A DNA stretch of 64,000 nucleotides from a virus. Position 1 is the stretch's first letter. Every line of letters begins with the position of its first letter. Location: the IMG/VR virus record IMGVR_UViG_3300032053_000053, positions 1 to 64,000 of that record. The stretch is one strand, 5' to 3'. Both the position numbers and the translations under genes were made by a program. Below the pieces are notes generated by a model, which had not been told where the DNA came from, did no database searches, and worked only from the letters and a program-made list of their open reading frames with translations. Of this stretch, positions 3,807 to 46,881 are shown one piece after another.

Positions 3807-3875
3807 TAATATTAAGATATATATAACTCAGTAAGGTTTGTTCCACATAGCAAGAATAAATTGTACTGGAGCCTG

Positions 3876-5073: not shown

Positions 5074-5111
5074 TCGCTCTCTTCGCGTTTGCCATTCTTA
5101 TCATCTACATT
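4942..5111. repeat. Imperfect 27-bp inverted repeat
   Basis: Arms are 4942-4968 and 5085-5111; the second is the reverse complement of the first with two mismatches in 27. The left arm lies inside the sigma-like gene and encodes NVDYKNGKR; the right arm, read on the minus strand, encodes NVDDKNGKR at the C-terminus of the GIY-YIG gene. The two arms are therefore read in the same frame in two convergent proteins. Confidence 0.85.
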
Positions 5112-5936
5112 ATTTATCGATTCTAATTTTTTCTGCTTATTTAATTTTCTTATTACCCATGCTTTTATCATATTTTCCGACATTTGTTCTTTTGTTTTAT
5201 CAGAATGTACCTTTCCAAGCCAATGATGATGGTCTTTTTCACGTTCAAGAGGTATATTATTTCGTAATATCACTCTTCGTATTGTCGGTGCGTTTGTATC
5301 TAATAATTCTATCATTTGTACATATGGAATCCCGGTTAAAAACACTTCTATAATTTTTTGTTCCCTTTCTTTACTCATTCTTCTTGCAATTCCACGTTTT
5401 TTTAATGATTCCGGAGAAAAAACTCGTCCTTTGCTTGACTCGCTAATTTTCTTTATTGCTTCTTGCGTATGCGTTTTACCCTGCATTGGGTGAATATTAT
5501 TTTTATGATGTTCTGTCATGGTTTTAGACGTCTTTAGTTTTGCTTCTTTGGTACGTTCTCTTCCGCTGTTTGCTTTTGATATTTTTTGTTTCGTCTCATT
5601 CGACAGCCGTTTGCCAAACCAGTAAGATTTTTCGCCCTTTAATGATTCTGATATTTTCTTTTTAGACTCTTCAGAATGTTTTCCTCCCCTTCCACCCGCT
5701 TTTAAGTTATATCCCACATCACTATCTCTACTTTGAAACAAAACAATATAATAGTCTTCCATTGCATCCGCCTCTTCCTGGGTTTCGTATTGTGCCAAGA
5801 CAGAGTATTCAAAGTTTTCGTGACCGTATTTAACTATTGAGGCATACAAATATATTGAATTCATATATTTCCCGCCTTCTTTGCCCATTCTATCTTCCGG
5901 TTTGTTCCATGTTTGGCCTATGTATATTTTTTTCAT
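5070..5936 (-). CDS. GIY-YIG homing endonuclease with frameshifted 5' end
   Basis: A 288-residue minus-strand protein with the second half of a GIY-YIG domain (KKIYIGQTWN at the very start, then Glu in AMEDYYIVLFQ), several NUMOD3 repeats (HSEESKKKISESLKG and relatives, about 85-185) and a C-terminal helix-turn-helix. The normal first strand (GIY-like) is missing. It is found upstream in another frame: from ATG 5973, behind a good AAAGG SD at 5981-5985, the sequence reads TIYMLTNKINE and would join KIYIGQT if the A7 run (5927-5933, T on the + strand) were one base shorter. The gene is therefore either inactivated, frameshift-expressed or affected by a homopolymer error. It converges on the sigma-like gene. 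Confidence 0.85.
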   Translation of the reverse strand: MKKIYIGQTWNKPEDRMGKEGGKYMNSIYLYASIVKYGHENFEYSVLAQYETQEEADAMEDYYIVLFQSRDSDVGYNLKAGGRGGKHSEESKKKISESLKGEKSYWFGKRLSNETKQKISKANSGRERTKEAKLKTSKTMTEHHKNNIHPMQGKTHTQEAIKKISESSKGRVFSPESLKKRGIARRMSKEREQKIIEVFLTGIPYVQMIELLDTNAPTIRRVILRNNIPLEREKDHHHWLGKVHSDKTKEQMSENMIKAWVIRKLNKQKKLESINNVDDKNGKREESD

Positions 5937-17079: not shown

Positions 17080-20000
17080 ATGTCAAATTTTAAATCAAAT
17101 ACCAAGTATGTTCAAAGAAGTGAATCTATAAATAGTCCGAAAAATAATCAAATTCCTAATGTTAGCGCAACGATGGCAAACGCAGTGTCTAGCGAGCGAC
17201 GGAGTTCATTGGCGCAAGAGGTTGAGCAAGGATTATTTAAAGACGGATCTTCATCAGCATTAAATAATTATAATATTACTAATGCGTCGAATGTATCTGC
17301 TTCAATTGGATTTAAAAAACAAAGCCAAGTGACAAGTAGCGGCGGTGGGTTTAAGGGCACAAACGATACTGTAAAGCAAACGCCAGAAATATATTCTCCT
17401 TTATGGTTAAGCAGCAACTTGAACCTTCCAAGAGATCGTGCTACAATAAATGCATGGTGTCGAGCATTTTACGCATTAAATCCATTTGTTCATAATGCAA
17501 TAAGCCTTCATAGCACTTATCCAATCAGTAAATTAAATATAAAGTGCCCTAATAAAGAAGTTGAAAAGTTTTTTAATGATATGATTGAAGAGACTGACTT
17601 GATGAATGTTTGTGTTCAGATTGCCCAAGAGTTCTGGTTACTTGGGGAATCATTTATATATGCAGAGTTAGATCAAAGCCGCGGAAAATGGAGTAGGTTT
17701 TTAATTCAGAATCCAGACTATATGATCGTTAAGAAGACTGCGGTTGCTAGCGATCCCATTATAATGATGCGGCCGGATGAAGGTTTGAAAAAAATAGTAC
17801 AGTCAAATAAGCCATCAGATTTAGCTCAACGAAAGCAGTTGAACCAGCATATAATTGATTGCGTTAAGAGGGGCGACAATATTCCGCTTGATAACTTCCA
17901 TGTATCTCATTTGGCAAGAAGAATTAGTCCTTATGAAATTAGAGGCACTGGGCTGCCTGTTTGTATATTTAGACAACTAATGTTATTTGATAAATTAAGA
18001 GAATGTTATTCTGATGACACGGAGGTTTTAACTGATAAAGGGTTTAAAACTATTGATCAGTTAACAGAATTAACAACTAGCGTATCTATTAATCCAAATT
18101 ATGTTAATGGCATTGATTTAGATGAAAACGGAAAAATAAACTCCATTTTGACCATGAAAGAAAATTTTAAAGTTGCATGCGTTAATCCAGACACAAATGA
18201 AATAGAATATCATAAGCCAACTGAGCTTCACATGTCACATCATGAAGGAAAAATGCTTCATTTTACTGGTAAAAAAATTGACACATTAGTTTCCCCTAAT
18301 CATAAAATGTGGGTAAAAGAACAAACAAATGGTGTTTGGGGAGAGAGCATAAAACGGCCTGCCCAAGATCTTCTTTTTAAGAAGAAATATTATAAATTTA
18401 ATTCTAAATCAAAATATGTTTCTGGTGAATACATAGATAATGTAGCTATTTATAATAAACATATCCCTATTAAGCTTTATCTTAAAGTTCTTGGATACAT
18501 TATATCTGAAGGTTGTGTTTATGAAAATTCTAAAAATGACCGTTATGATGCTGTTATATGTGTTAATCAGTTAACGTCTAGTAGTTGTTATAAAGATATG
18601 AGACAATCATTTGAGGCATTTGCTGATAAATTAAATGTAAAATGTTGTTCATATATCGATATTAAAGGTTCTGGATATTCAAAAAATACTCCAAAAGAAA
18701 AATGGGAAAGTAGAATTCACGGAAAAGATTTAGTTAAATATTTTAAAAATGAAATTGGTACTAGCGGGTCCACCCGGTCAGAACATAAACATTTGCCCCG
18801 TTGGGTACTTAACCTTAGACCAGATCTTCTTAGTATTGTTTTAGATTCATTAGTATCTGGTGATGGTTCAAAAAGTCAAAGTAAATATGGCACTGAATCT
18901 AAGTCATTTAAATATTCAACTATTTCCAAGCAACTGGCTGACGATGTATATGAATTAGTTTATAAAATCGGATTTGTTCCAAATATTTGCGTTTCAGTTG
19001 CAAAAAAATCTGATGGACGAATTGTAACAGAATATATTGTTATGTGGTCAGATACAGATTATGGCAACGAACCATTGGTTTATACTGGAACAAAAAGCAA
19101 AGATGGGGCTGGTGGTGGGGCAATAATTAATGAAATTGATTATAATGGAAAAGTTTGGTGCTTTGAAGTTCCAACAGGATTATTTATAACAAGACGTAAC
19201 GGCAAATTAGCTATTCATGGAAATAGTAAATTTGCTCAAGCTGACGGTATGATCAATCCACTAACTTTAGTTAAGGTTGGAGGGGGAGCCGGCGATTATA
19301 AGCCAACTCACGCAGATTTAGATGCTTGGCGCGAAATCTTTGAATGTCATGATGAAGAAACTGAAGTACTTACAGATAGTGGGTTTAAAAGGTTCGATGA
19401 AGTAATACAGTATTCTGAAATTATGGACGGAACTTATAGCTACCCAATTTGTTTAGCTTATCCAAAAAATAATGTAAAAATCGCTTGTTTTAATCCTAAT
19501 AATGAAGAATTGGAGTACCATACACCTACAGGCGCGAGCGTATATAATTATGAAGGGGAGATGTATCATTTTTCTAACAAAAAAGTTGATTTGAAAGTCA
19601 CGCCTAATCACAAATTATGGGTTTCAAAAAGAGAAAATGGATCAAAATATGGGTCATGGCATAAATTATGTGCCGATAAATTATTAATTAATAATTATCA
19701 TAAGTTTAAGTCACATATAAAGTGGACGGGGAAAGATATTGTGTCCACTAATATTTGCGATAAAAGCGTTCCAATAGAAAATTATTTAGAGTATATTGGA
19801 TACCTATTAAGTGAAGGCTGTGTATATAAAAGCAGCAGAAATTACTATACGAGCATTTGCCAATCTACTATTACAGATAAAAAACATTATCCTAAAATGA
19901 GAAAGTGTTTAACTGAATTTGCAAAATTATTAGACATGAAAACTAGCCATTACATTAATAAAAATGGTATATGGTCAGGGAAAATATCCAATAAAGGTTT

Positions 20001-21177
20001 GTATGAGTACTTCAAAAATGAAATTGGAGTTGGCGGCGATTCAACATCTGCACATAAGAAAATGCCTAAATGGATTTTAGAGTTATCACCAAGATTATTA
20101 AAAATAGTATTATCGGCATTGGTTTGCGGAGATGGGAACGTTTCTTTTAGCAAATTAAATAAGCTAAAATTATGTAGATATACAACAATTTCTAAACAAC
20201 TTGCAGATGATGTGTATGAAATGGCTTATAAATGTGGCTATGTTCCGCTTTTAGCAACATCAGCCAGGGGCACTAAAGTTTATGATATTTCTTGGTCTGA
20301 AGATATTAATGGCAAAGGCAGAACGCCATTAATTCATAAAGGCAATAGTTTAAAAGAAACAAATCCATTAATAATCGAAAACTATAATGGTAAAGTGTGG
20401 TGCTTTGAGGTACCAACAGGTTTGTTTATTACCAGGAGAAATGGGAAAATAACAATTCAAGGAAACTCCGCTCAATACGATAAAGACTTCAAGATTTTTA
20501 CTCATGAAGGCGTGTCTGTAGAGAGAGTTGGGTATGGTCAAGGCATTTTAGATATTGGTAATGACATCACTCAACTAATAAAAGAAATATATGTAGGTTT
20601 GCAAGTTCCGTCAGTATTAATGGACGGAGGCTCTGATACTACATATGCTAATGGCGGCGTTGCGATGGATATTTTGCGCCAACGATATATGCAATTTAGA
20701 AACATGATGAGTATGTGGTTAAAAAGAAAAATTTTTGCACCAATATCACATATTCAAGGTTTTTATGAATACAAAAAGGGCAGCGGTAAATCAGAAAAAC
20801 AATTAATAGTTCCTGAAATTGACTGGAATCATATGTCATTATTTGATGCCGGTGATTATATGAATGTACTATCGCAGCTAACACAGGGCGAAGGCGGACA
20901 AAAAAGAGTATCTTTGCACACGCTTTATCGTTCACTTGGGCTTGAATGGGAAGATGAACAGCGAAAAATGCGTAAAGAGGCAATTTCAGTTGCAATCTTA
21001 AAGAAAGAACAAGCCGCTTTGGATACAATGGATCTAAATTCTATACGTGCAATTACTGATGATGATGAAATTTTAGAGCCTGACAATGCTTCTGATTTTG
21101 CAAATGAATCCTCTGGTGGCGAAACTGCCCCATTACCTGGAATGGAAAGCTCGCCAACTACTCCACCAGCCGTATAA
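17080..21177 (+). CDS. Portal protein interrupted by two inteins
   Basis: A 1365-residue precursor. Removal of two inteins (407 and 374 residues) leaves a 584-residue portal: 308 N-terminal residues, a 40-residue middle piece and 236 C-terminal residues. Portal features include the N-terminal WCRAFYALNPFVHNAI segment, the crown/wing region with NPDYMIV, and the C-terminal LQVPSVLMDGG followed by NGGVAMDILRQRYMQ. The dodecameric portal forms the packaging and tail vertex next to TerL, which is encoded directly upstream. The SD AAGG (17071-17074) is 5 bases from the ATG. Both inteins keep splicing and endonuclease motifs, so splicing is expected to be required for virion formation. Confidence 0.94.
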   Translation: MSNFKSNTKYVQRSESINSPKNNQIPNVSATMANAVSSERRSSLAQEVEQGLFKDGSSSALNNYNITNASNVSASIGFKKQSQVTSSGGGFKGTNDTVKQTPEIYSPLWLSSNLNLPRDRATINAWCRAFYALNPFVHNAISLHSTYPISKLNIKCPNKEVEKFFNDMIEETDLMNVCVQIAQEFWLLGESFIYAELDQSRGKWSRFLIQNPDYMIVKKTAVASDPIIMMRPDEGLKKIVQSNKPSDLAQRKQLNQHIIDCVKRGDNIPLDNFHVSHLARRISPYEIRGTGLPVCIFRQLMLFDKLRECYSDDTEVLTDKGFKTIDQLTELTTSVSINPNYVNGIDLDENGKINSILTMKENFKVACVNPDTNEIEYHKPTELHMSHHEGKMLHFTGKKIDTLVSPNHKMWVKEQTNGVWGESIKRPAQDLLFKKKYYKFNSKSKYVSGEYIDNVAIYNKHIPIKLYLKVLGYIISEGCVYENSKNDRYDAVICVNQLTSSSCYKDMRQSFEAFADKLNVKCCSYIDIKGSGYSKNTPKEKWESRIHGKDLVKYFKNEIGTSGSTRSEHKHLPRWVLNLRPDLLSIVLDSLVSGDGSKSQSKYGTESKSFKYSTISKQLADDVYELVYKIGFVPNICVSVAKKSDGRIVTEYIVMWSDTDYGNEPLVYTGTKSKDGAGGGAIINEIDYNGKVWCFEVPTGLFITRRNGKLAIHGNSKFAQADGMINPLTLVKVGGGAGDYKPTHADLDAWREIFECHDEETEVLTDSGFKRFDEVIQYSEIMDGTYSYPICLAYPKNNVKIACFNPNNEELEYHTPTGASVYNYEGEMYHFSNKKVDLKVTPNHKLWVSKRENGSKYGSWHKLCADKLLINNYHKFKSHIKWTGKDIVSTNICDKSVPIENYLEYIGYLLSEGCVYKSSRNYYTSICQSTITDKKHYPKMRKCLTEFAKLLDMKTSHYINKNGIWSGKISNKGLYEYFKNEIGVGGDSTSAHKKMPKWILELSPRLLKIVLSALVCGDGNVSFSKLNKLKLCRYTTISKQLADDVYEMAYKCGYVPLLATSARGTKVYDISWSEDINGKGRTPLIHKGNSLKETNPLIIENYNGKVWCFEVPTGLFITRRNGKITIQGNSAQYDKDFKIFTHEGVSVERVGYGQGILDIGNDITQLIKEIYVGLQVPSVLMDGGSDTTYANGGVAMDILRQRYMQFRNMMSMWLKRKIFAPISHIQGFYEYKKGSGKSEKQLIVPEIDWNHMSLFDAGDYMNVLSQLTQGEGGQKRVSLHTLYRSLGLEWEDEQRKMRKEAISVAILKKEQAALDTMDLNSIRAITDDDEILEPDNASDFANESSGGETAPLPGMESSPTTPPAV
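18004..19224 (+). other. Portal intein 1 with LAGLIDADG endonuclease
   Basis: A 407-residue intein from Cys1 (CYSDDTEVLTDKGF, block A) to the terminal Asn (RRNGKLAIHGN), followed by Ser +1 at 19225. Block B is SPNHKMW, with His in place and Ser instead of the usual Thr. The central LAGLIDADG domain has LGYIISEG and LDSLVSGDG, whose acidic residues are intact. The penultimate residue is Gly rather than His, as in a known subset of inteins. Splicing joins LRE to SKF. Confidence 0.93.
19345..20466 (+). other. Portal intein 2 with LAGLIDADG endonuclease
   Basis: A 374-residue intein from Cys1 (CHDEETEVLTDSGF) to terminal Asn (RRNGKITIQGN), with Ser +1 at 20467. Block B is TPNHKLW. LAGLIDADG motifs are IGYLLSEG and LSALVCGDG. 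Blocks A and F/G closely match intein 1 in protein sequence but differ at many synonymous positions. It starts 40 codons after intein 1 ends; splicing joins IFE to SAQ. Confidence 0.93.
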
Positions 21178-27623: not shown

Positions 27624-30600
27624 ATGTCATTTATTAAACTTGGAGAATTAGTAGATATTAGCCTGGAAACATCGGAATCTGTTATACCTATGATTGATGA
27701 CAGCGCTATTACAGAGCATTTTAAGCGATATGCGTTTGAAATGAAAAAGATTGCCCCAAAAGCTAATGATTTTTTATATTTTTCAGCTGTTATGATGCAT
27801 TCTGCCGAAGCGAGCGCAATTAATCCAGATGGTTCAGTAAAAAAGACCGCAAATGGCGAGCCTGTAACAGTTGGGTGGGATACTTCTGGTGGCACTTGGA
27901 GATGGATAACAAATGACCCATCAGTTAAACCATATAAGAATAGCAATAATGATATTTTCCCGGAGTCAGAATTAATTAAAGCTTATCGTAAATGGAAAGA
28001 TAAGCCTCTTTGCATTGATCACAAATCAGATTCGGTAGATTATGTTCGTGGGTTCATTGTTGATACTTATTATGATCGTGCGCTAAAACGAGTCGTGGCA
28101 CTTTGCGCATTAGATAAGTTTAATTATCCTGACCTTGCACGAAAAGTTTCATCTAGATATTCTAATTCGGTGTCAATGGGTACTGCCGTTGGTCGCGCAA
28201 TTTGTTTTGACTGTGGCCAAGTTGCAAGAGCTGAAAAAGATTTTTGTCAACATATGCGCTCAAAAACAAGTTATGGCGAAATAAATGTTGATTTAAGTCC
28301 AATTGAATTATCTATTGTTGTTAACGGAGCTGATCAATATGCAAAAATTAAACATATTATTGCATCAGCAAATGAATTAAATAGATATGTTGAAATGAAA
28401 CGCGAAAGAATGGAAGAAATTAGCAAATCATCGGTAAAAATAGATGATATTATTCAAATTCGCAAAGAATTCGATGATGCAATGACAAAACTGGCAAATC
28501 TGGAGTCTGCAATAATCGAAGAAAAATCTGCCAAAAATACTAATGATACCGCATTAGTTCAAGCAAGTGGCGATATTTCAGTAGCAGAAACAGAATTGCC
28601 TGCCACGGATTTCAATATCTCACCACCTGCTCAAAGGCTTGCCGCTGATGATGACTGTTGTGGAGTTGATATCGTAAAGTTGAATGAGGTTGTTTCTTCA
28701 ATTGAAAGTAATTTAACCTTCATCAAACAAAGTTTAGACAAGTTATCAAATTCTAATAATACAAACGAGGAAAATATGTCTGGATCAAAGGATAATGTTA
28801 AACAAGCGTACTTTCAAGGGACAGAAGAGCCAACTCCAGGCGAGGCAAAGTATTTAAAAGAGCCTCTAAATGAGAATCTTCGAACTGACGGCGACAAGCA
28901 CATGATGGCCCAAGATACAGGACCGGTTGACGGACTATTTCCTGGCGATCTTGAGAAAAAGAAAATGCTTGCTCGTGCTCAGGCTGAAGAGCGGGCAATG
29001 CGCAGACAAACCGTGGTGGCAAAGGCAAAAGAGGCTCTTGAGAAGCGATCTTATTTTCAGGGCACTGAAGAGCCAACCCCAGGTAAACCGCAATATTCAA
29101 AAGATCCAATGAATCAAGATCTTCGTGAAGACAGCGATAAACAAATGGTTGGTGCAAAACCATTTCCGGGCGTCGGTAAAACTGAAGATCTTTATCCGGA
29201 AGATAAGAAAAAGAAGGAGCTTCTTCAAAGAGCATCTTTCCGCGCCAGATTTATAAAGGCTGCCAATAATGATGGCACTCATAATAAAGGTAATAGCGCA
29301 TGGGAAGTTTACTCTGGAGATAAACTCCTTGTTTCTGCATCAGTTAATGAGTTAACTGGTAATCGTGCAAACGCTCTATATGCAGCTATTGCAACCAAAG
29401 ATTTTGGCGCAAAATTAATTGAAGATGTTAAGACAGTTGGCGCCGCGAAAGTTAAGTCTCTATATAAGTCTGCTCAAGAGGCTGCTGTCGCTGAACCAGC
29501 TCCAGAGGCTCCAGCTCCAGAAGCACCAGCTCCAGAGGCGCCTGCAGTCGAAGCAGCTCCCGTCCCAGCTGACAATGATGGTCTAAAAGAAACCGTAGTA
29601 GATCTTAAAGACAAGTTAAAAGAAGTTTCATCTGATTTAGGCGAAGCCCTTGACAAGCTTCTAGATGAGCAAGCTGAAATGGGCGATATGGATAAAGCCG
29701 CTTCGCAAGAATCAGCTTCACTTAATAATATGCGTAAAGAACTAAACGGCGCCCTTGTAAACGCGCTTAAAGAATCAATCGCAGAGCTTAAGGATCGCGA
29801 AGAAGAGCTTACTCAAATTGCAGATCTTTCAAATAAGAACGAGAAACTTGCATCAGAAAACGATATGTTTAAGTCAATTGTTGAAGATTCAATTGAAGAA
29901 GCAAAAACTGTTCTAGCAGATTCTTTCAAGCTTATGACCGCTTTTGTAAAATATGCCCGTGGAACAGAAGCTATCGTTAAACGCGCAGAAATTGAATCTA
30001 AACTTACTCAACTATCCGATAATGGAGAATCTGATATGGCCGCATTAGATGATTTAATGAATGATGATAAGGATCTTATGAACCTAATCAATGATGTTGA
30101 TGATGATATGAATGCACTTAAAGAAGAAATGTGCGCAGAAGATGACTCATCTGATTCTGCAACGGCTGATGATGTGGATACTGATATGGTCGCGGAAGCA
30201 TCATTTAATTTAACCACAAAAGAAGGTCGAACTGCTTTCCGAGCTAAACTTGCTGCAGACACAATGAAAATGTCTCCAGTTCTTCATGAAGCGCATCCAA
30301 AGGGCGGTACAACTACGTCTCTTGATGTCAAACCAAGCGGTAATCTTGCAGAGGTTGAAGATCTAGAAGGTGTTCATGATGCAATGATGGACGTTGCTAC
30401 TGCTCCACCAAAGGTTCGTAAAGAGGCTGAGGCGATACAATCTCTCATTGTATCCGGGCAATTAGACGCAGCCGATGTAGATGCCCTTGTTTCAGAGGGT
30501 CTTGATAAGGATGCGGTTGCTTATTGGAAGAAATATTTCGGTCAAGCAGGTTCAGAGGGCTCACAATTTGCAACAGAATTGGTTAAAGAGCATGCTAAGG

Positions 30601-30932
30601 CTAAGATGGAAAAAGAACTCGATGCATTTAAGGTTAAGATTGCACGAGCATATGAATTAACATATGATATGGTAGAGCGTGGTCTTTGTTCACGAGACAG
30701 GTCTTCAGTTTCCTCGCAAGTAGAAGAAATACTTAAGTCTAATAATGATGGCTTTGATTCTCTCAAGAGGGTAGTTGCTCGTCATGAACCACTTGCAGTA
30801 AAACAATCTGGTCGCATGCCGCAAGTTGGTATAATTGGTTCAGAAGAGTCATTTGTAAGCTTGGGCGATTCAGAAAACCTTTTATCACAACTATCAGCAG
30901 CATTTTCGGGTAATGGCAAAAGGCTCTTCTAA
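27624..30932 (+). CDS. Prohead maturation protease fused to scaffold
   Basis: A 1102-residue protein. Residues about 50-260 resemble prohead core proteases of the herpes-assemblin-like group: H133 in CIDHKSDSVDYVRG, S184 in NSVSMGTAVGR as likely nucleophile, then a Cys/His knuckle (C194, C197, C208, H210). The rest is scaffold-like: helices, two 81-residue repeats starting at 396 and 477 (YFQGTEEPTPG), a folded unit with SAWEVYSGDKLLVSAS, a Pro/Ala/Glu linker near 625, long acidic coiled coils (660-860), the motif EAHPKG near 890, and a helical C-terminus. Protease and scaffold in one chain would explain the size. The active-site assignment is by pattern only. Confidence 0.78.
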   Translation: MSFIKLGELVDISLETSESVIPMIDDSAITEHFKRYAFEMKKIAPKANDFLYFSAVMMHSAEASAINPDGSVKKTANGEPVTVGWDTSGGTWRWITNDPSVKPYKNSNNDIFPESELIKAYRKWKDKPLCIDHKSDSVDYVRGFIVDTYYDRALKRVVALCALDKFNYPDLARKVSSRYSNSVSMGTAVGRAICFDCGQVARAEKDFCQHMRSKTSYGEINVDLSPIELSIVVNGADQYAKIKHIIASANELNRYVEMKRERMEEISKSSVKIDDIIQIRKEFDDAMTKLANLESAIIEEKSAKNTNDTALVQASGDISVAETELPATDFNISPPAQRLAADDDCCGVDIVKLNEVVSSIESNLTFIKQSLDKLSNSNNTNEENMSGSKDNVKQAYFQGTEEPTPGEAKYLKEPLNENLRTDGDKHMMAQDTGPVDGLFPGDLEKKKMLARAQAEERAMRRQTVVAKAKEALEKRSYFQGTEEPTPGKPQYSKDPMNQDLREDSDKQMVGAKPFPGVGKTEDLYPEDKKKKELLQRASFRARFIKAANNDGTHNKGNSAWEVYSGDKLLVSASVNELTGNRANALYAAIATKDFGAKLIEDVKTVGAAKVKSLYKSAQEAAVAEPAPEAPAPEAPAPEAPAVEAAPVPADNDGLKETVVDLKDKLKEVSSDLGEALDKLLDEQAEMGDMDKAASQESASLNNMRKELNGALVNALKESIAELKDREEELTQIADLSNKNEKLASENDMFKSIVEDSIEEAKTVLADSFKLMTAFVKYARGTEAIVKRAEIESKLTQLSDNGESDMAALDDLMNDDKDLMNLINDVDDDMNALKEEMCAEDDSSDSATADDVDTDMVAEASFNLTTKEGRTAFRAKLAADTMKMSPVLHEAHPKGGTTTSLDVKPSGNLAEVEDLEGVHDAMMDVATAPPKVRKEAEAIQSLIVSGQLDAADVDALVSEGLDKDAVAYWKKYFGQAGSEGSQFATELVKEHAKAKMEKELDAFKVKIARAYELTYDMVERGLCSRDRSSVSSQVEEILKSNNDGFDSLKRVVARHEPLAVKQSGRMPQVGIIGSEESFVSLGDSENLLSQLSAAFSGNGKRLF

Positions 30933-30943
30933 AGGAAATAATA

Positions 30944-31489
30944 ATGGCAAAAAATAGCGTATCCGAATCAGTTGCTCGTGAAATGAATGAAACTCTAAAT
31001 AGTGAATCACATAAATCATTATTTGGAACTATATACAAATCAGCGCAACAACTTGAAGTAAAAATGTGTGAAAAATGCCACAAAAACCCATGCGTTTGCG
31101 CAGATGTCGCCAAAGTAGAAGACGCAGCCTGTGCAAATGATGGTGTTGATGTTGCAATGAGTGATGACAGTAGTGGTGATGAAGATGAAGATAAAACCAG
31201 CACTGCAGCTCTTGATGTAGCAATTGACAGTTTAATCAGGGCATCGGCCGCTCTTGATAGGGTTGGTTTTGAAAAATCGGCAACTGTAACACTGAATCTG
31301 GCCGGATTAGTTGCAGAGGCAAAAAAGAAGAAGATGGAAAAGAAGAAGGCTCCAAAAAAGCCTGCAAAATCGACAGAAAAATCAACAAAAGAAACACCTA
31401 AGAGTAAATCTGATAAGTCTAAAAAAGAGACTTCAAAAGATACATCAAAGAAAACAACGGAAGAATCAGCTAAGAAGTCAAAAAAGTAA
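30944..31489 (+). CDS. Structural-type protein with Lys-rich tail
   Basis: A 181-residue protein with three parts: an N-terminal helical segment; a Cys cluster (MCEKCHKNPCVCADV) that may bind zinc; an acidic linker followed by the helix pair ASAALDRVGFEKSATVTLNL; and a tail of about 60 residues almost entirely Lys, Ser, Thr and Glu. The helix pair matches that in the next gene, so the two are probably paralogues. The basic tail could contact DNA or be removed by the maturation protease. A strong terminator follows at 31505. Confidence 0.8.
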   Translation: MAKNSVSESVAREMNETLNSESHKSLFGTIYKSAQQLEVKMCEKCHKNPCVCADVAKVEDAACANDGVDVAMSDDSSGDEDEDKTSTAALDVAIDSLIRASAALDRVGFEKSATVTLNLAGLVAEAKKKKMEKKKAPKKPAKSTEKSTKETPKSKSDKSKKETSKDTSKKTTEESAKKSKK

Positions 31490-31504
31490 AACTGTTAAAC
31501 TTAG

Positions 31505-31539
31505 AGCATGGGATTGTATTGTGCAATCCCATGCTTTTT
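31505..31539 (+). terminator. Intrinsic terminator
   Basis: A perfect 12-bp stem (31505-31516 with 31524-31535), 7-base loop and following TTTT. It closes the unit that contains the protease-scaffold. Confidence 0.88.
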
Positions 31540-31590
31540 CATTAACACAAGTGGTTCGGAGCCACGCAAATTGAGACAAGGCCCAATAAA

Positions 31591-31995
31591 ATGACTCATA
31601 AATTATTCAAATTTGGCAGCGTAGAAGATGAGCTTATGGCATCAATGGAAGCTTCGCTTGTTAAAAATCAAAAAGATATGGCTTTCGGGCATGATAAATT
31701 AATAAAAGCAGTTGATCATTTGAGTGCAGCAGCAGAAATATTTGATAATACCGGTTTTGGCAAAGAAGCAGAAATTATCACAAGATTAATTGAAAAAATT
31801 GCTCAGGATAAAAGCGTTGGCGAACTAATAGAAGAGGAATTAGGCGCCCAGCTTCATCCAATTAATAAAATGATTGAAGAAGATCTCGTTAAAAAAGAAA
31901 TTGATGACCTTATTCAATCTGAACAAGAATTAGACAGCCGACAATATCATATTCAAAAAATGCTTGATGAAGAAATGTCTAAAAAAAAAGTCTAG
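31591..31995 (+). CDS. Structural-type protein, probably extended by -1 frameshift
   Basis: The zero-frame product is 134 residues: an N-terminal segment, the helix pair AAAEIFDNTGFGKEAEIITRL shared with the preceding gene, and a charged helix ending EEMSKKKV. The last codons sit on nine A (31981-31989). Shifting -1 there continues in an open frame for 61 more residues to TAG 32172-32174, giving a sensible tail (NTKFDKYTHGLTPEKM, then an acidic end). This suggests programmed frameshifting or polymerase slippage at the A9 run, a one-base deletion, or a sequencing error. The 3' end is antisense to the tail of the convergent LAGLIDADG gene. Confidence 0.78.
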   Translation: MTHKLFKFGSVEDELMASMEASLVKNQKDMAFGHDKLIKAVDHLSAAAEIFDNTGFGKEAEIITRLIEKIAQDKSVGELIEEELGAQLHPINKMIEEDLVKKEIDDLIQSEQELDSRQYHIQKMLDEEMSKKKV

Positions 31996-32174
31996 CCAAC
32001 ACCAAATTCGATAAGTACACACACGGCTTAACACCTGAAAAAATGGTGGAAAATCTTAAACATACCGGAACTCCATTTGATTATCCGGCAGATGATTTAT
32101 TAGAATTAGATATTGAAGATAATTTGGAAGTGTCTGATTTAGATTCGGACATGGATTTTGAAGACGAAATATAG
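31981..32174 (+). other. A9 slippery site and -1 frame extension
   Basis: TCT AAA AAA AAA GTC TAG in frame 0 becomes AAA AAA AGT CTA GCC in frame -1. The -1 frame (codons from 31989) is open for 61 sense codons and ends at 32172-32174. The predicted tail has ordinary phage codon use and an acidic terminus similar to neighbouring proteins, and has no SD-supported start of its own (ATG 32042 lacks one). Confidence 0.65.
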
Positions 32175-32974
32175 CGGTTAAACTCTTGATATTTTTCGTA
32201 TTTTCTTGGCAAATATATTGTTGCATCTGAATATAACCAATCCAATAATTTTTTCGACTGTCTATTGCCTCCGACCGATAATGTTGTCGTTATTTGATTT
32301 GTTTTTGGACAAGACAGTGATAAAGAACAATTTACATTTAGAGTTTTATTTATAATTTCTTTAACCGAATTGCAAAATTTATCGGTAGATATTATCTTCC
32401 AAATAAAATTAATTCCGTGGCGTAGTTTGTTTTTATAAATTGTTCCGTCACCATCCGAATAACCTCTAATAAAATGACGAACTAATTCGGGTTTAATAAA
32501 TGATGGAAAAATCAATTTTAATGATTTATTTGGGACGCAACCGAGATCAATTAATTGATCACAGATTATTTTTTGATGAGTTCTAAAATAAGAATATTTT
32601 CCATCATATAATTTAACTGGAGATGATGGGGAAAGAATGTCTCTTAATTTTTCTATTATTATAATATCTTCTTTCTTAAGCTTAATAGTCATTACATATT
32701 GTGTATTTTTTATTTGCACGCAGCCGTCAGCATATAACAATCCAAGAAAATATGCATTCTCTTCAGAATTAATTAGATTAAAAAAATTAATATTAATATC
32801 GTTATATGTAATATTTTTTGGGATTCTTGTTGTTATTTTATTTTTAATTAATATTGATGAGATAGTTTTCTGTGAACAATTTAATTCTTTAGCAATTTCA
32901 TTTTGTGTTTTTCCCTGATTATATGATAAAATTATATTATTTACTTGATGATATGAAAATATAGAGTGCATCAT
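32081..32974 (-). CDS. LAGLIDADG homing endonuclease
   Basis: A 297-residue minus-strand protein. Residues 10-45 are a helix-turn-helix (GKTQNEIAKELNCSQKTISS). LAGLIDADG motifs are FLGLLYADGC (77-86) and FIRGYSDGDGT (168-178), both with the metal-binding Asp. The fold ends near 269; the remaining 28 residues, almost all Ser, Lys, Asn and Thr, are simply the antisense of the acidic tail of the + strand gene extension (32081-32167). The enzyme probably lost its original stop on insertion. No SD is evident at ATG 32974/32971. It is placed between two virion-type genes. Confidence 0.92.
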   Translation of the reverse strand: MMHSIFSYHQVNNIILSYNQGKTQNEIAKELNCSQKTISSILIKNKITTRIPKNITYNDININFFNLINSEENAYFLGLLYADGCVQIKNTQYVMTIKLKKEDIIIIEKLRDILSPSSPVKLYDGKYSYFRTHQKIICDQLIDLGCVPNKSLKLIFPSFIKPELVRHFIRGYSDGDGTIYKNKLRHGINFIWKIISTDKFCNSVKEIINKTLNVNCSLSLSCPKTNQITTTLSVGGNRQSKKLLDWLYSDATIYLPRKYEKYQEFNRYISSSKSMSESKSDTSKLSSISNSNKSSAG

Positions 32975-33021
32975 ACGATATATATCATAGTAGGCATGGT
33001 GTAAATTAAATAGGAAAATTG

Positions 33022-33711
33022 ATGTTAAGATTAGTGCAAATTGGCAACGCCCTTCCAGCGAGTTTTATAGTTGACCCTAGCGCAGAGTTTCAATCAGGTC
33101 AGATAGCAGAACTTACAATTATCGGAAACCAAGTTATGGCAACGGTAAGCAAAGGTACAGCTCCAATTGGAATTATTGATGATATTAAAACCAGGGCATT
33201 TACTAGTGTTTCTTGGAATGAAGAGATCGTAGTTGCCGCAGCCGGAGTCTTAGATATAAATAATGTTATAGTCACTCCAGTTGATGTTAAGGCAGAATTA
33301 ATTCATCCAAATGTTATGGGATCAAGTTTTATATCATCTGTCCCTTGCGCGCTTAATTCAAATAATGGGGTGATTACATTTCTGTCTGGAACCCCGCTTA
33401 ATTTTGATTTAACTGGCGGCGGCATTCCTAACGCAATTAGAGCTGTTGTTAGCTATACATATCAAGTTGCAAATATTCCTGGCGATGATAGTACGGCGGC
33501 GAGCGGGCGAGTTACGGTATGGTTTAATAGGATGTTCGCCCAGACTGATCAATATGAAACAAATCAGCAGTACCCAGTTAGAGCAAATTTATATGTGAGC
33601 GAATTAGGGCTATTAACTACAAGACGACCGAGCGATTTTCATCCGGCTGTCGCCATGGTAACTGCTCCACCATCTCCATTACACAGTATGATAGAGTTTC
33701 TTTGGTATTAA
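33022..33711 (+). CDS. Virion structural protein (decoration-like)
   Basis: A 229-residue, beta-rich, low-Lys protein with VQIGNALPASFIVDP at the start and repeated Gly/Thr/Val strands. The C-terminus ends in aromatic residues (IEFLWY), and the abundant protein at 41199 likewise ends FYWQPGLV, so the two may be related decoration or tube-type proteins. The start is ATG 33022 with AGGA 6 bases upstream; a TTG immediately before it is not needed. It lies downstream of the protease-scaffold as head decoration proteins often do. The assignment is inference. Confidence 0.75.
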   Translation: MLRLVQIGNALPASFIVDPSAEFQSGQIAELTIIGNQVMATVSKGTAPIGIIDDIKTRAFTSVSWNEEIVVAAAGVLDINNVIVTPVDVKAELIHPNVMGSSFISSVPCALNSNNGVITFLSGTPLNFDLTGGGIPNAIRAVVSYTYQVANIPGDDSTAASGRVTVWFNRMFAQTDQYETNQQYPVRANLYVSELGLLTTRRPSDFHPAVAMVTAPPSPLHSMIEFLWY

Positions 33712-33717
33712 AACAAT

Positions 33718-34953
33718 GTGCATTATATATACAAAATAACAAATATAGTCAATAATAAAGTTTATATTGGTCAAACAATAAACCCAAATGCCAGATGGAG
33801 AGCACATCAATCATATGCTCTAAAAAAACCTATCCAATATATACATCGAGCAATGGCAAAACATAAATTTGTCAATTTTATATTCGAGTTGATTTTAACC
33901 TGTAAAACGCAGGATGATGCAAATGAAGCGGAAGACGTCATAATTATTCAATATAATAGCCGTAACAAGAAATATGGATATAATCTAAATGCTGGCGGTA
34001 TTAATGGTATTAGCTCAGAAGAAACCAAACAAAAACAGCGTGAAGCCACCATTAAACAAATAAAAGAAATGGGCCATCCCGCCAAAGGTACTAGGCGCTC
34101 CGAAGAACAGCGGGCTTATTTAAGTTATGCTCAGAAAAACAGAAATAATAATTATACATCCGAAATAAGACAAAGAATGTCGGATGCGCATATTGGTATC
34201 AAAGACTCTGAACAAACAAAAAAGAAAAAATCTGATAGTGCAAAACTCGGGTGGCTAAAACGTAGAAAAATAACAAATAATAATGGATATTATCGTGAAA
34301 AGAACAAAGAAAAAATAGTTGCAAAAAAGAAAGAATATTACGAAAATAACAAAGCTGAAATCTTAAAAAGGAGAAAGGTTTATTATGAGAATAATAAAAT
34401 AAAATCGTTGCAACAACAAAAAGGATATCGAAAGAACAATAAGGATAAGATTAGAGACATTAATATAAAATATGTTGCTAAAAATAAAGAAATAATTTTA
34501 TTGAAACAACAGGAATATTATAAAAATAATAAAGCTATATTGCTTGATAAAAAGAAAATTCGTTGCGTTTTTAAATATAAAAACGATATATCTTACAAGC
34601 TAAGGCAATTAATTAGCTGCTCCATTAATCAGCAATTAAAAAAATCTTCGATATCAAAATCATGCAAATCAATATCTAGCATTCTAAAATATTCAATAAA
34701 TGATTTTAAAGCACATATTGAGAGTTTATTTGAGCCATGGATGAATTGGAATAATCATGGGCAATATAGGGCAAATGAATGGGACAATAATAACAATAAA
34801 ACATGGGTATGGCAAATTGATCATATTACGCCGCAGAGTTGTTTTAAAATTAAATCAATTAATTGTGAAGAATTACAAAAATGTTGGGCGTTAAACAATC
34901 TTCGACCATATTCTGCAAAACAAAATAATATTGATAGAAATCGCATCGGCTAA
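33718..34953 (+). CDS. GIY-YIG / HNH double-nuclease homing endonuclease
   Basis: A 411-residue protein that appears to hold two nuclease domains. Residues 1-95 are GIY-YIG (YIYKITN, KVYIGQT, Arg in NARWRAHQ, Glu in EAEDVIIIQYN). The middle (about 100-320) is basic and contains tandem units of about 17 residues with YYENNK or similar cores (EYYENNKAEILKRRK and relatives). The C-terminal 70 residues match HNH enzymes that use a WQIDHI core (FEPWMNWNNHG, VWQIDHITPQ, LNNLRPYSAKQN), like the separate gene at 42887-43531. It begins with GTG 7 bases after the preceding stop. Confidence 0.9.
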   Translation: MHYIYKITNIVNNKVYIGQTINPNARWRAHQSYALKKPIQYIHRAMAKHKFVNFIFELILTCKTQDDANEAEDVIIIQYNSRNKKYGYNLNAGGINGISSEETKQKQREATIKQIKEMGHPAKGTRRSEEQRAYLSYAQKNRNNNYTSEIRQRMSDAHIGIKDSEQTKKKKSDSAKLGWLKRRKITNNNGYYREKNKEKIVAKKKEYYENNKAEILKRRKVYYENNKIKSLQQQKGYRKNNKDKIRDINIKYVAKNKEIILLKQQEYYKNNKAILLDKKKIRCVFKYKNDISYKLRQLISCSINQQLKKSSISKSCKSISSILKYSINDFKAHIESLFEPWMNWNNHGQYRANEWDNNNNKTWVWQIDHITPQSCFKIKSINCEELQKCWALNNLRPYSAKQNNIDRNRIG

Positions 34954-41889: not shown

Positions 41890-42864
41890 TTAAACTAATA
41901 TAGCTAAAAGAGGCGGCTTTTCAGTCGCCTCTTTTTTATTTTGATATTCCGTTATTTGCTTTATCCAAATATTAAAATTTTCCAATTCCATTCTTTCTTT
42001 GGCAAAATTACAATATTTGCAGCAAGCGACTACGTTGTCTTTGTTATGACCTGAATTTGAATTAATTCGATCTAGTCCGTTATAGTAATATTCTGATTTT
42101 TCTATTGATAATTTTGGCCTACAACTATTTAGTATACAACGATTAAATGGTTTGGCATCGCAATAATGGCAATTCTGCTGAGTTAATTGCCAAAATTCTT
42201 GTAATGTTAAATCTCCATCTTTATACCTGTAGAAAATTTTCCTTACTGATGTAGCATAATATTTTGGCAATATACAATCAGTGAAAATATGGTTTACATT
42301 TTCTTTAATTTTTAATGACCGAATATATCTGTGAAAATCTTCTATTGACCGATTACTTTTGGCTCTATTACATGTATTACAGCAAGCAACAACGTTATCT
42401 ATTTTGTGCGGTTTATTACTATTAATTCTATCAAGCCCATTAAATGTGAATGTCCCCGCATCTTTAACTGATTGTGGGCTATTGTTTGATTTTACAGCGA
42501 AACAATTATATTTTTTTGAAGGAGAGCATCCGCAATAAAAACAATCTTGCTGAGATATTTCGTAGAATTGTTCAAAAGATATATCGCATTCTTTATCGTC
42601 ATTATAATATCTCGACCAAACTATTCTTGCCGACGATATTGCTGGTTCGTATTTTCGTCTATTAATCGCCATGAAACAAGACAGATTGTCCATATATTCT
42701 TTTAGCAAACATCCGCAAGATTTAGTGCATTTGTTTAATCTAACCTCTAGAACAATTGCTTTTTTGCCGCAATCACATAAACATTGCCATTTATTATCAA
42801 TTTTTTTAATTAATGTTAATCGATAAAACTTGTCTCCGGCCCTATAATTATTTCGTTTTCTCAT
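41890..42864 (-). CDS. HNH homing endonuclease, two HNH units
   Basis: A 324-residue minus-strand protein. Residues 1-60 are a Cys-rich module (WQCLCDCGKKAIV ... KSCGC) found in many phage HNH proteins. Two HNH units follow: CFYCG to FNGLDRINSNKPHKIDNV and CCNTCNRAKSNR (about 115-190), then CHYCD to YNGLDRINSNSGHNKDNV and CCKYCNFAKER (about 235-305). Both keep CxxC pairs and the DRINS/DNVV core. The C-terminal residues are read through the terminator of the convergent virion gene, suggesting insertion at that 3' end. Confidence 0.9.
   Translation of the reverse strand: MRKRNNYRAGDKFYRLTLIKKIDNKWQCLCDCGKKAIVLEVRLNKCTKSCGCLLKEYMDNLSCFMAINRRKYEPAISSARIVWSRYYNDDKECDISFEQFYEISQQDCFYCGCSPSKKYNCFAVKSNNSPQSVKDAGTFTFNGLDRINSNKPHKIDNVVACCNTCNRAKSNRSIEDFHRYIRSLKIKENVNHIFTDCILPKYYATSVRKIFYRYKDGDLTLQEFWQLTQQNCHYCDAKPFNRCILNSCRPKLSIEKSEYYYNGLDRINSNSGHNKDNVVACCKYCNFAKERMELENFNIWIKQITEYQNKKEATEKPPLLAILV
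41906..41937 (+). terminator. Intrinsic terminator
   Basis: A 10-bp stem (41906-41915 with 41926-41935), extended by a G-U and a C-G pair, followed by a run of six T. The hairpin is symmetric enough to act on both strands; it lies within the last codons of the convergent HNH gene. Confidence 0.87.
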
Positions 42865-42886
42865 GATTTTTTTTGGACAATGAAAT

Positions 42887-43531
42887 TTATTGCTTTGTAC
42901 TGGCAGTAATTAGCTTCTTATGTCTTTTTTTAGAAACCCCGTCCATTAAATTTTGTTTTGAATTTAATGGACGCAAATTATTAATATCCCAACATTCATT
43001 AAAAGCACTGTCTTTCATTGTTATATAGCCAAATGTAGATTGTGGAATTATATGATCAATTTGCCACGTCCACGTTGTTACATCATTATCATTCCAAGAA
43101 TTTGTGCTATATGATCCATAATTTTCCCAGCTCATCCATGGCTCAAATTGATTCTCTATGTGCAACTTAAGATCAAGAATAGAGTATGGTAGAAAATTAA
43201 ATATTGATTTACCGGTTTTATAACCACCATTTTCAATTAAATAATAATGAATTGATCTGCTTACATTTTTTCTTAATTTATACGTCACATTTGTTTTTCG
43301 AAGACGCCTTTCATATTTCGTTATTTTATCTTTATTCAGCATTTTCCAGCGTTTAGATTTACTTCTATTCTTTGCCTTTTCTAAATCACTATTATTACCA
43401 TATCTTTTTTGATAATTAATTTGTGATATGCGACTAAAACATTCTTTGCATTCTGGCCTATATTTATTTCTGTCATGACGAAAATAAAAGTCAGATATTG
43501 GTTTTGTCTTTTTGCAAATTATACATTGCAT
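42887..43531 (-). CDS. HNH homing endonuclease, WQIDHI type
   Basis: A 214-residue minus-strand protein. The N-terminus has a zinc knuckle (MQCIICKKTK and CKECF); a long basic helix follows; the C-terminal nuclease reads FEPWMSWENYGSY, TWQIDHIIPQ, ECWDINNLRPLNSKQN. It matches the C-terminal half of the GIY-YIG/HNH fusion at 33718. The start at 43531 has an AAAGGA upstream; a longer version from 43564 overlaps the preceding gene's end more deeply. It is in a three-gene minus-strand nuclease cluster. Confidence 0.88.
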   Translation of the reverse strand: MQCIICKKTKPISDFYFRHDRNKYRPECKECFSRISQINYQKRYGNNSDLEKAKNRSKSKRWKMLNKDKITKYERRLRKTNVTYKLRKNVSRSIHYYLIENGGYKTGKSIFNFLPYSILDLKLHIENQFEPWMSWENYGSYSTNSWNDNDVTTWTWQIDHIIPQSTFGYITMKDSAFNECWDINNLRPLNSKQNLMDGVSKKRHKKLITASTKQ

Positions 43532-44673
43532 TTTTTTTGGTGATCCTTTATTCTTATAATCCAATTATTAAAATCTTCTAATAATAGATTTCCTTTAGCA
43601 AAATTACAGTATTTACAGCAAGGTACTATATTGTCTTTAGTATGTGATTTATTATTATCTAATCTATCAATTCCGTTATAATAATAATGAGCGCCATCTT
43701 TAGCTAGTTTAGACGCTTTTTTATCCTTTAAATAAACATTGTAATAATTAACTTCCTTAACTCTACAATAAAAACATGGTAATTTTGAATAAGTATAAAA
43801 TGTAGGTAGATCAATTTCCATTTTGCCATAATTCCTTTTATAATGTCTATAGGCACATTTCACTGATACAAGCAAGTAGCTATTTGGCAATGTAAGTAAT
43901 CTATCTGAAAATATAAACTTATTAATCTTTTTTAACCCAATAATATATTTGTGAAAATCGATTATTGATCTGTTGCTTTTAGCTCTATTACATGTCCAGC
44001 AGCATGGAACAATATTGTCTTTACTATATGTGCAATCATTATTCACGCGGTCTATTCCATTGTAAACAAACCACCCATTGTTTTTTGCTTTTTGCGATGC
44101 CGATTTCCTGCCAATAAAACAATTATAGTTATTGCTTGGCGCGATTCCACAATAATTACAATTCATCTGGCTAATTAATAACCATTCATCGAAAGTTAAA
44201 TTACATGTTAAATCTCTACGACAATAACTTTTCCATAATCTACGCGCAGAAGTGGTATTAGGTTCATATTTTGTGATTACTGCCGGAGACAAAAGCCTAT
44301 TTTTTAATAGAGCTTCTTTTTTTAAGCATCCGCATGACTTGGTATTACCGCTATTAATTTTACCTGTATTTGCAATTAAAGTTTTTCCGCACTCACATTC
44401 GCATAACCACCGGCTGTTTCCGATATAATTAATCATCGTTAATCTATTTATTTTTTGTCCAGAATAAAGGGATAAATTAATTGTACAACCACAGGATTTT
44501 TGAGCGTTGCTTGTTAATGTGCCCGTCCTAACAATCAATATTTTTCCGCATTCACATCGACAGTTCCAGCCTGTAAATGATCTGCCTCCAGCTTCACTTG
44601 GTAAAATATTATTTGCTTTAGATATGACGGTTAATTTTTCGAATTTTTTCCCAACAAGATCTAGTTTTTTCAT
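43519..44673 (-). CDS. HNH homing endonuclease, two HNH units
   Basis: A 384-residue minus-strand protein with two N-terminal Cys modules (CRCECGKILIV ... KSCGC and CECECGKTLIA ... KSCGC), followed by two HNH units (CNYCG, YNGIDRVNNDCTYSKDNIV, CCWTCNRAKSNR; then CFYCR, YNGIDRLDNNKSHTKDNIV, CCKYCNFAKGN). It is a paralogue of the gene at 41890 with one extra Cys module. The start at 44673 is chosen because AAGG lies 7 bases upstream. It directs transcription away from the major capsid gene and overlaps the next HNH gene slightly. Confidence 0.9.
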   Translation of the reverse strand: MKKLDLVGKKFEKLTVISKANNILPSEAGGRSFTGWNCRCECGKILIVRTGTLTSNAQKSCGCTINLSLYSGQKINRLTMINYIGNSRWLCECECGKTLIANTGKINSGNTKSCGCLKKEALLKNRLLSPAVITKYEPNTTSARRLWKSYCRRDLTCNLTFDEWLLISQMNCNYCGIAPSNNYNCFIGRKSASQKAKNNGWFVYNGIDRVNNDCTYSKDNIVPCCWTCNRAKSNRSIIDFHKYIIGLKKINKFIFSDRLLTLPNSYLLVSVKCAYRHYKRNYGKMEIDLPTFYTYSKLPCFYCRVKEVNYYNVYLKDKKASKLAKDGAHYYYNGIDRLDNNKSHTKDNIVPCCKYCNFAKGNLLLEDFNNWIIRIKDHQKKCNV

Positions 44674-44746
44674 TATTTGCCTTAAATATATCATGCAAAT
44701 TTAATTTTTTCATTTAAGATAGTAATATTCCTTCATACTTGATAGG

Positions 44747-44766: not shown

Positions 44767-44817
44767 TGTGTAAGCTGGTGCAAACTGGCAACATTTTCAA
44801 CCATATGGAGAATACTA

Positions 44818-45831
44818 ATGAGTTTTTTTAATAACAAAGGCGAAGTTAACGCCTCTTCAGTAAAAGAAGCGATGGCAGTAATTGCAAAATACGCAAGCCT
44901 TTTAGAGGATAACACCCCGTCAAACTTCGGTCAAGCCGGGCAACCATCACTTTCAGATGATAAGCGTGATGAACTTATATCCAGAGCTATAATGACACAA
45001 GACGGCAAAATTGCCCTTGCTCAATCAATGGCAAACCCAATTCGCCGAAACTTAGATTACCATGGAATTGCCCGTCGTGCACTCGTTGTCGACCCACTTC
45101 CACAAGGCGCAATCCCAACCTACGAGCGAGATATCGACGTTGCAGCAGTCGTTATTTCAAGCAATGGTTCGGGCCCAGAAAGCCGCGTATTCGGTGATCG
45201 CGTTCTCGTTCCAGAGTTCGAAATCTTCTCGAATCCAACCGTTCGTATCGCAGAAGTCAAACGCCGCCGATTCAACGTTATCGACCGTGCAGTGCAAAAG
45301 GCTCGTCAAGAAATCATGGCACAAGAAGACGCAAACGTTTTCGCAGCCCTAGATGCAGCCTCCTCAGTCGAAAACGCTCTTCAAGACGTTGCCGATGCAG
45401 GAATGCTCAAGCGTGACCTAATCGAAATCAAGGGTCAAGTTGATCGCCATGATCTCGTAACAACCAAGTTCTTCATGAACATCAATGAATTCAACGATAT
45501 CCTCAAGTGGGGTACCGGCGGTGGTCAAGGCGTAGGCGGTGGCGAATTAGACCCAGTAACAATGCGAGAAGTTCTTCAGACTGGGCTATATGCTCACATC
45601 TGGGGTGCAGACATAATGGTTAGTAAGATCGTTCCAGCTGGGACCGTTTATGGTTGTGCAGATCCTGAGTTCGTAGGTGTAATGCCAGTGCGACAAGACA
45701 TAGAGGTATTGCCTGCTGATGAACCAAAGAGGCTAATGCTTGGTTGGGTTGTAAGCGAGATTATAGGGATTGGAATTGTCAATCCACGTGGTGTTGCTTC
45801 AGGCCGAAAGAGCTTAGTAATCGGCGCATAA
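44818..45831 (+). CDS. Major capsid protein (HK97-fold candidate)
   Basis: A 337-residue protein. The segment from about 75 to 170 (NPIRRNLDYHGIARRAL, then PLPQGAIPTYERDID and VPEFEIFSNPTVRIAEVKRR) and the C-terminal VLPADEPKRLMLGWVVSEII resemble major capsid proteins of large myophages. A Gly-rich loop (GTGGGQGVGGGELD) lies near 230. Strong codon bias towards C-ending codons, a GGAG SD 7 bases upstream (start 44818, not the earlier in-frame 44755) and a strong terminator indicate the highest expression class. Its position after TerL, portal and protease-scaffold agrees. It would assemble as hexamers and pentamers of the head shell. Confidence 0.82.
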   Translation: MSFFNNKGEVNASSVKEAMAVIAKYASLLEDNTPSNFGQAGQPSLSDDKRDELISRAIMTQDGKIALAQSMANPIRRNLDYHGIARRALVVDPLPQGAIPTYERDIDVAAVVISSNGSGPESRVFGDRVLVPEFEIFSNPTVRIAEVKRRRFNVIDRAVQKARQEIMAQEDANVFAALDAASSVENALQDVADAGMLKRDLIEIKGQVDRHDLVTTKFFMNINEFNDILKWGTGGGQGVGGGELDPVTMREVLQTGLYAHIWGADIMVSKIVPAGTVYGCADPEFVGVMPVRQDIEVLPADEPKRLMLGWVVSEIIGIGIVNPRGVASGRKSLVIGA

Positions 45832-45945: not shown

Positions 45946-46881
45946 ATGATTAAAATGAAAAAATTAACAATTCAAGAAAAAGAACAAATTATCGAATTAT
46001 ACAAAACCGGGGTATCTCCGAAAATAATTGGAGATCGGTTTGGAGTATATAATAATAGTATAAATAGAATAGTTAGAAAAGCTGGGGTTAATACAAAAAC
46101 GAAAGACGTAGATTACGAAACTACAAAAGAAATAATAAGTCGTTATCTTGCCGGAGAATCATCGGAAAAAATAGCCGATGATCTTAAAATTGTAGGATCA
46201 ACCGTTTGCCGTATATTGAAACGAAATAATGTTAATATAAGGCCATCAACAGAAAACAAAAGAATTCACAAAATAAATGAAGATTTTTTTGAAAATATTG
46301 ACAATGAATCTAAGGCTTATTTTCTTGGAATGATGTTTGCGGACGGAAATGTGCACAAATTACATGGCGCAATAAAATTGTCATTAAAAACAAGTGATGA
46401 TGAAATTATAAAAAAATTATCTGTTCTCATATATAACAAAGAAAAAGTAGAATACTATGCGGGTGAATGCAGTACTTGCAATTTGAGTATTTATAGTTCT
46501 AAGATGAAGAAAGATTTATTGAAACTAGGTTGTACTCCAGCAAAAACATTTATTATTCGTCTCCCGGAATTAAGATCAGATTTATATCGCCATTTTATCA
46601 GGGGTTATTTCGATGGTGATGGGTGCGTATCAAATGCATCCGGTATAAATCGAATTGATATAACATCAAATCATATGTTTATTGAAGATATTTATTTTAA
46701 ATTAATGGAACAAATACCAAATTGTCATATTTACAAGGCGAAAAATAATCCAACGAATTATATACAAATTAAACATAGGGAAAGCTTTCGTAGATTCTAT
46801 GAATATCTGTATATTAATGCAACAATTTGTATGGAACGAAAATATAAATTGTACTCAGAAATAGTGCGTCAGCATTCATGA
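45946..46881 (+). CDS. LAGLIDADG homing endonuclease
   Basis: A 311-residue protein with two N-terminal helix-turn-helix units (EKEQIIELYKTGVSPKII then GDRFG, and ISRYLAGESSEKIADDL then KIVGST), followed by a two-motif LAGLIDADG nuclease: FLGMMFADGNV and FIRGYFDGDGC, both Asp intact. The C-terminal helices (FYEYLYINATICMERKYKLY) match the other LAGLIDADG genes at 32081 and 50121. It sits between the capsid terminator and a small gene, with its own promoter-like element. Confidence 0.93.
   Translation: MIKMKKLTIQEKEQIIELYKTGVSPKIIGDRFGVYNNSINRIVRKAGVNTKTKDVDYETTKEIISRYLAGESSEKIADDLKIVGSTVCRILKRNNVNIRPSTENKRIHKINEDFFENIDNESKAYFLGMMFADGNVHKLHGAIKLSLKTSDDEIIKKLSVLIYNKEKVEYYAGECSTCNLSIYSSKMKKDLLKLGCTPAKTFIIRLPELRSDLYRHFIRGYFDGDGCVSNASGINRIDITSNHMFIEDIYFKLMEQIPNCHIYKAKNNPTNYIQIKHRESFRRFYEYLYINATICMERKYKLYSEIVRQHS

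Follow-up and report, generated by a model that had tools for sequence, protein, structure and literature searches.

The window, the 64,000 nucleotides analysed of a 70.7-kb virus record, contains on its plus strand a gene (31591–31995) for a short product of 134 aa, composed of a helical "body" (approximately residues 5–74) and a linker and ending in EMSKKKV. Its zero-frame 3′ end reads ATG TCT AAA AAA AAA GTC TAG, with nine A preceded by T at 31981–31989 (+), exactly where the initial annotation had placed them. The stop TAG (31993–31995, +) had been described as lying two codons after the run, which holds if the stop itself is counted, one sense codon (GTC) coming in between. When the last A is re-read (AGT CTA GCC ...), the −1 frame is open from 31989 to 32174 (+) and encodes a tail of 61 residues (SLANTKFDKYTHGLTPEKM...DFEDEI) up to a stop at 32172–32174, which would be the C-terminal part of a long product of ~194 aa; both the open extent and the acidic end had been described correctly. 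It was also right that the tail has no upstream start of its own, a TAA at 31980–31982, at the start of the run, closing the −1 frame there, and the in-frame ATG within the tail lies inside the conserved LTPEKM motif. The junction holds the sole A9/T9 run of the window. One A run of at least nine was observed on both strands of the 64 kb, against 19.4 ± 6.5 expected from dinucleotide shuffles; the A9 is not a chance feature, and such runs are avoided elsewhere in the window.

Upstream of this slippage gene lies a conserved neighbour of 181 aa with a Lys-rich tail (30944–31489, +), and between the two is a probable intrinsic terminator, a very stable hairpin followed by a T-run (31503–31541, +; z = −7.0). 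Terminator-like hairpins apparently stand, by eye, directly 3′ of the tail in four of the related loci described below (L002, L004, L005 and L064). Homology between the body and the upstream Lys-rich protein was unsupported (hhalign probability <1%). Homologues of the Lys-rich gene in L015, L017, L038, L053, L059 and L063 carry A9–A10 just before the stop, and in L038, L053 and L063 the −1 frame continues for ~90–120 codons and looks coding; because these three extensions are mutually non-homologous, they were not counted as a second conserved case. Another A9 is found at L157–L159:2211. On the downstream side, a conserved protein of 229 aa (33022–33711, +) follows after an insert-like spacer of 847 bp (32175–33021), where the relatives have 50–153 bp. 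The spacer carries an ORF for a LAGLIDADG homing endonuclease (32974–32081, −), which is placed precisely between the slippage gene and the gene for the 229-aa protein and whose last ~30 codons are antisense to the tail. Homing-endonuclease-like ORFs crowd the module, at 32081–32974 (−), 33718–34953 (+), 3861–4640 (+), 5070–5936 (−), 41890–44694 (−), 45946–46881 (+) and others, among which LAGLIDADG was assigned by Pfam only at 32081–32974, the GIY-YIG and HNH-like ones being recognized by eye. A portal-like gene (17080–21177, 1365 aa) seems, also by eye, to contain two intein-like insertions with repeated CYSDDTEVLTDKGF... and HDEETEVLTDSGF... blocks.

Relatives were collected with several baits. 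None were found with the 134-aa short protein as lone query; matches came from the downstream protein and from the tail of 61 aa. With the tail as query, four IMG/VR loci were matched, three of which (L002, L003 and L004) again have the tail in the −1 frame 3′ of A9–A10, the fourth (L005) having tail and body in one frame. With the conserved downstream protein (33022–33711) and the body as further baits, ~90 non-redundant loci were gathered and sorted by profile scans, the body family being seen in ~80 related loci, on contigs of up to 480 kb. Among INPHARED phages, no convincing relative of the slippage gene or of the downstream protein was found, and gp24/gp25 of Bacillus phage G were not recognisable as homologues of the gene.

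The related loci occur in three states. The slippage type comprises eight distinct loci (the window, L002, L003, L004, L064, L096, L103 and L122), all with the same layout: a single body gene, NNT plus the A run, one to three sense codons, a stop and a homologous tail in the −1 frame. T plus nine A is invariant in their alignment; the run is A9 in seven loci and A10 in L002, where the frame relation is unchanged because the next codon is ATC. The eight sequences are divergent: in the one nearest to the window, the fraction shared with it is 80% for the downstream protein, 52% for the short product and 68% for the tail. The two-gene type comprises ~70 loci, in which gene A (body, median 75 aa) is directly adjoined or overlapped by gene B (body, linker and tail in one frame, median 234 aa). 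In most of them the tail follows the second body copy in frame with no stop in between, although the B genes of L059, L063, L071 and L111 have a tail motif that is diverged or unrecognisable. An apparent A–B fusion in L025/L052 proved to be an artefact of a profile match running past the stop of gene A, which in L025 ends TAA TAG. The third state is a single in-frame long gene, found in the distant relatives L112, L113, L154, L157 and perhaps L091; since the first four have only this gene, a frameshift in every single-body locus is ruled out, and not every member of the wider family has two forms. The bodies of the slippage type score higher against the gene-A profile than against the gene-B profile in 8/8 loci, the likeness being at the N-terminus. 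The motif hxFKS(I/L) is present in 31/69 B proteins, in 0/69 A proteins and in the linkers of 3/8 slippage-type genes.

Combined, the conserved site and the tail kept by homologues support the proposal of the initial annotation that two products of different length could be made, and these comparisons make it very probable that the A9 is a site of programmed slippage, be it by polymerase or ribosome. The homologues extend beyond the zero-frame stop, where they might have ended; most carry the same tail fused in one frame. Differences among the tails fall mostly on third codon positions of their own frame (0.42/0.29/0.58 for positions 1/2/3). A true run of ten A, through sequencing or assembly error or in a decayed gene that is really one long frame, could be suspected from the homopolymer and from the clearly coding extension, but is extremely improbable for the window. 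The same A run and frame relation recur in eight divergent loci, which would not all land in the same frame by a chance indel or assembly fault, and are repeated in duplicate assemblies, L096/L097 and L103/L104 being base-for-base identical over the locus, A9 included, with different samples within each pair. The zero-frame stop is retained in all eight loci, and even the A10 of L002 leaves the frames as they are. Because eight distinct loci keep an identical arrangement, error and decay are excluded as a general explanation.

Two further readings accept the sequence as it stands. On the one hand, the run could vary at replication, A9 and A10 genomes within phage populations switching the long form off and on; A9 is mutable and both length states specify sensible proteins, but the short frame was found in every slippage-type locus sampled and the fused frame in none, making such phase variation very unlikely. 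On the other hand, the tail could be an independent small gene started at the ATG of LTPEKM. This is equally improbable, considering that conserved residues (KFDKYTHGLTPEK) lie 5′ of that ATG, that in homologues body and tail form a single reading frame, and that a TAA stands in the −1 frame directly before the run.

The reading we favour, with a probability of roughly 0.6 judged from the sequence comparisons, is that programmed RNA-polymerase slippage at the A9 yields a short and a long form. Normal reading would give the mostly helical protein of 134 aa, and a fraction of transcripts would gain one A at the run (less likely, ribosomes would shift by −1), so that slipped events bypass the stop one codon on and append the conserved 61-aa tail with its LTPEKM..NL helix motif and acidic FEDE end, to give ~194 aa. 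The short and long forms would be needed in some ratio for virion assembly; the phage of the window would obtain both from one gene, and most relatives from two genes in tandem, A with the body alone and B with body plus tail.

Where the initial annotation had left the choice between ribosomes and RNA polymerase, the data lean to RNA polymerase without deciding between them. All 24 Lys codons in the runs of the eight loci are AAA and none is AAG, with AAA making up 37–85% of the Lys codons in these loci; the chance of this is ~1e-5 under free codon choice, or p = 0.02 if the third codon alone is counted. For a ribosomal heptamer, seven A are enough and AAG is tolerated as the last codon. RNAalifold found no conserved downstream base pairs across the slippage-type loci. 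The polymerase is favoured by the invariance of the nine A, by the absence of AAG and by the lack of a conserved RNA structure downstream. The locus has the features expected for poly-A slippage, namely an uninterrupted run of at least ~9 A, a conserved coding alternate frame and avoidance of such runs elsewhere in the 64-kb window, nine nucleotides being the usual length from which A runs are avoided in the genes of many bacterial genomes (PMC1088944). Counting against the polymerase, slippage of bacterial RNA polymerase on A runs is weak next to that of T7 RNA polymerase (PMC6260861).

Programmed −1 ribosomal frameshifting on A AAA AAA before the stop would give the same two products and is the main alternative, though a rather unlikely one. 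The slippery heptamer (X XXY YYZ in the zero frame) is present in 8/8 loci and A_AAA_AAA is among the listed ribosomal frameshift motifs (PMC3711429), and the position one to three codons before a stop suits ribosomes as well. Single-sequence folds just 3′ of the site range from z = +0.6 to −4.0, those of L103 (−4.0), L122 (−2.3) and L002 (−2.1) being more stable than shuffles. A stimulatory structure downstream is common in programmed −1 ribosomal frameshifting but not obligatory. Set against this are the lack of conserved downstream pairs by RNAalifold, the invariance of nine A without AAG where fewer and freer bases would do, and the sequence 5′ of the run, which is unconserved in the alignment with no shared Shine–Dalgarno-like stimulator evident there.

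Sites of opposite polarity occur within gene B. In ten two-gene loci an A9 lies at the homologous junction (EFKSIAQKK), directly 5′ of the tail, and the zero frame is the long form; in 9/9 genes examined, one extra A would lead to a stop 1–5 residues on and hence to a short form. The nine cases are not independent because their loci are interrelated. Both polarities have a counterpart in tssM (PMC4256274), in which a poly-A run likewise gives two length variants: in Citrobacter rodentium tssM1 the slip leads to the long form (20–25%), both forms are needed and their ratio matters, as the slippage-type genes might behave, and in Yersinia pseudotuberculosis tssM3 it leads to the short form, as the A9-bearing B genes might. 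The tssM genes differ in being two isolated cases, with A11 in tssM1, of a secretion-system membrane protein, whereas the phage family is a conserved gene whose A9 adjoins the stop and which has relatives with two genes instead.

As to the function of the products, searches of Pfam, PHROG and PDB gave no convincing family match for body or tail, and the weak matches of the B family included no tail chaperone. The AlphaFold models are of low confidence (pLDDT 69 and 73) and had no significant fold match; the short product is modelled as mostly helical and the B protein, at the same low confidence, as three body helices, one tail helix (LTPEKM..NL) and a disordered acidic end. The named genes that flank the slippage gene encode a head maturation protease (27624–30932) and the major head protein (44803–45831), and because of them its product is likely a head-assembly factor or virion component, as suggested by gene position only. 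The major head protein has a PHROG match and is 52% identical to gp27 of Bacillus phage G, which would place the phage of the window near the Bacillus phage G group; this capsid protein is its sole link to known phages in the INPHARED comparison.

A locus tree was built on homologues of the downstream protein (33022–33711), with a midpoint root only. Support of 99/87 unites 42 two-gene rows in one group, the slippage-type loci are a grade adjoining it, and the four single in-frame loci stand on the far side (99/97); a single origin of the slippage state was not rejected (p-AU 0.21). If the tree is followed from the single-gene loci, slippage would precede the gene pair, a direction of change that we infer only, because the root is the midpoint. 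We therefore propose only tentatively that slippage and tandem pair are interchangeable within one huge-phage lineage, with slippage the older state, a duplication giving A (short) and B (long), and some B genes keeping or regaining an A9 with inverted polarity. If true, this would directly exemplify how two genes can take the place of a recoding site, with polymerase slippage serving a virion-assembly gene.

Dual products from poly-A slippage and frameshift extensions in phages are known kinds. The dnaX gene of Thermus thermophilus, as cited in PMC1088944, has transcriptional slippage at a nine-A coding-strand site giving two length variants; there, normal reading gives the long form and the product is a cellular polymerase subunit. 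The lambda tail assembly chaperones gpG/gpGT are likewise a short and a −1 extended product of a morphogenesis gene, but they serve the tape-measure protein and arise by ribosomal slippage (PMC5009743). The gene of the window lies instead between head maturation protease and major capsid genes and has no detected homology to gpG/gpGT; it does not resemble a tail assembly chaperone gene, its neighbours being the Lys-rich gene and the conserved 229-aa protein, not a tape-measure gene, and no chaperone homology being found. T3/T7 gene 10 and the capsid of Listeria phage PSA also have a frameshift-made C-terminal extension of a virion protein, although these are major capsid proteins with a ribosomal mechanism (PMC5009743) and the gene here encodes a small helical protein. 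In the literature searched, polymerase slippage was assigned to no phage virion-assembly gene; it has been suggested for one phage methyltransferase (PMC2853527). The same literature appears to contain no account of the gene family, of the exchange between slippage and tandem pair or of the B sites with reversed polarity.

A scan for the pattern T-A9-G..stop turned up unrelated phage genes with long −1 frames at L128:688–911, L138:2064–3670 and on the minus strand of L142 near 1125, of 73, 534 and 191 codons, respectively, which are candidate slippage genes of other families; neither the L128 zero-frame product nor the L142 −1 product had relatives in the phage collection. In L092/L093 (Bacillus phage G gp22/gp23), the annotation joins the endolysin gene from two pieces, with GGTAAAAAAGTAG where they meet, likely another frameshift at a run of A ahead of a stop.

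The A9 is a usable signal for finding more slippage genes in phages. In these very large phages, gene prediction programs would overlook the tail and list the protein in truncated form. The family offers a natural experiment, with an apparent slippage route in some phages and a two-gene route in close relatives; since the same two products would be made by slippage or by separate genes, the ratio that is needed and the evolution of recoding become directly testable.
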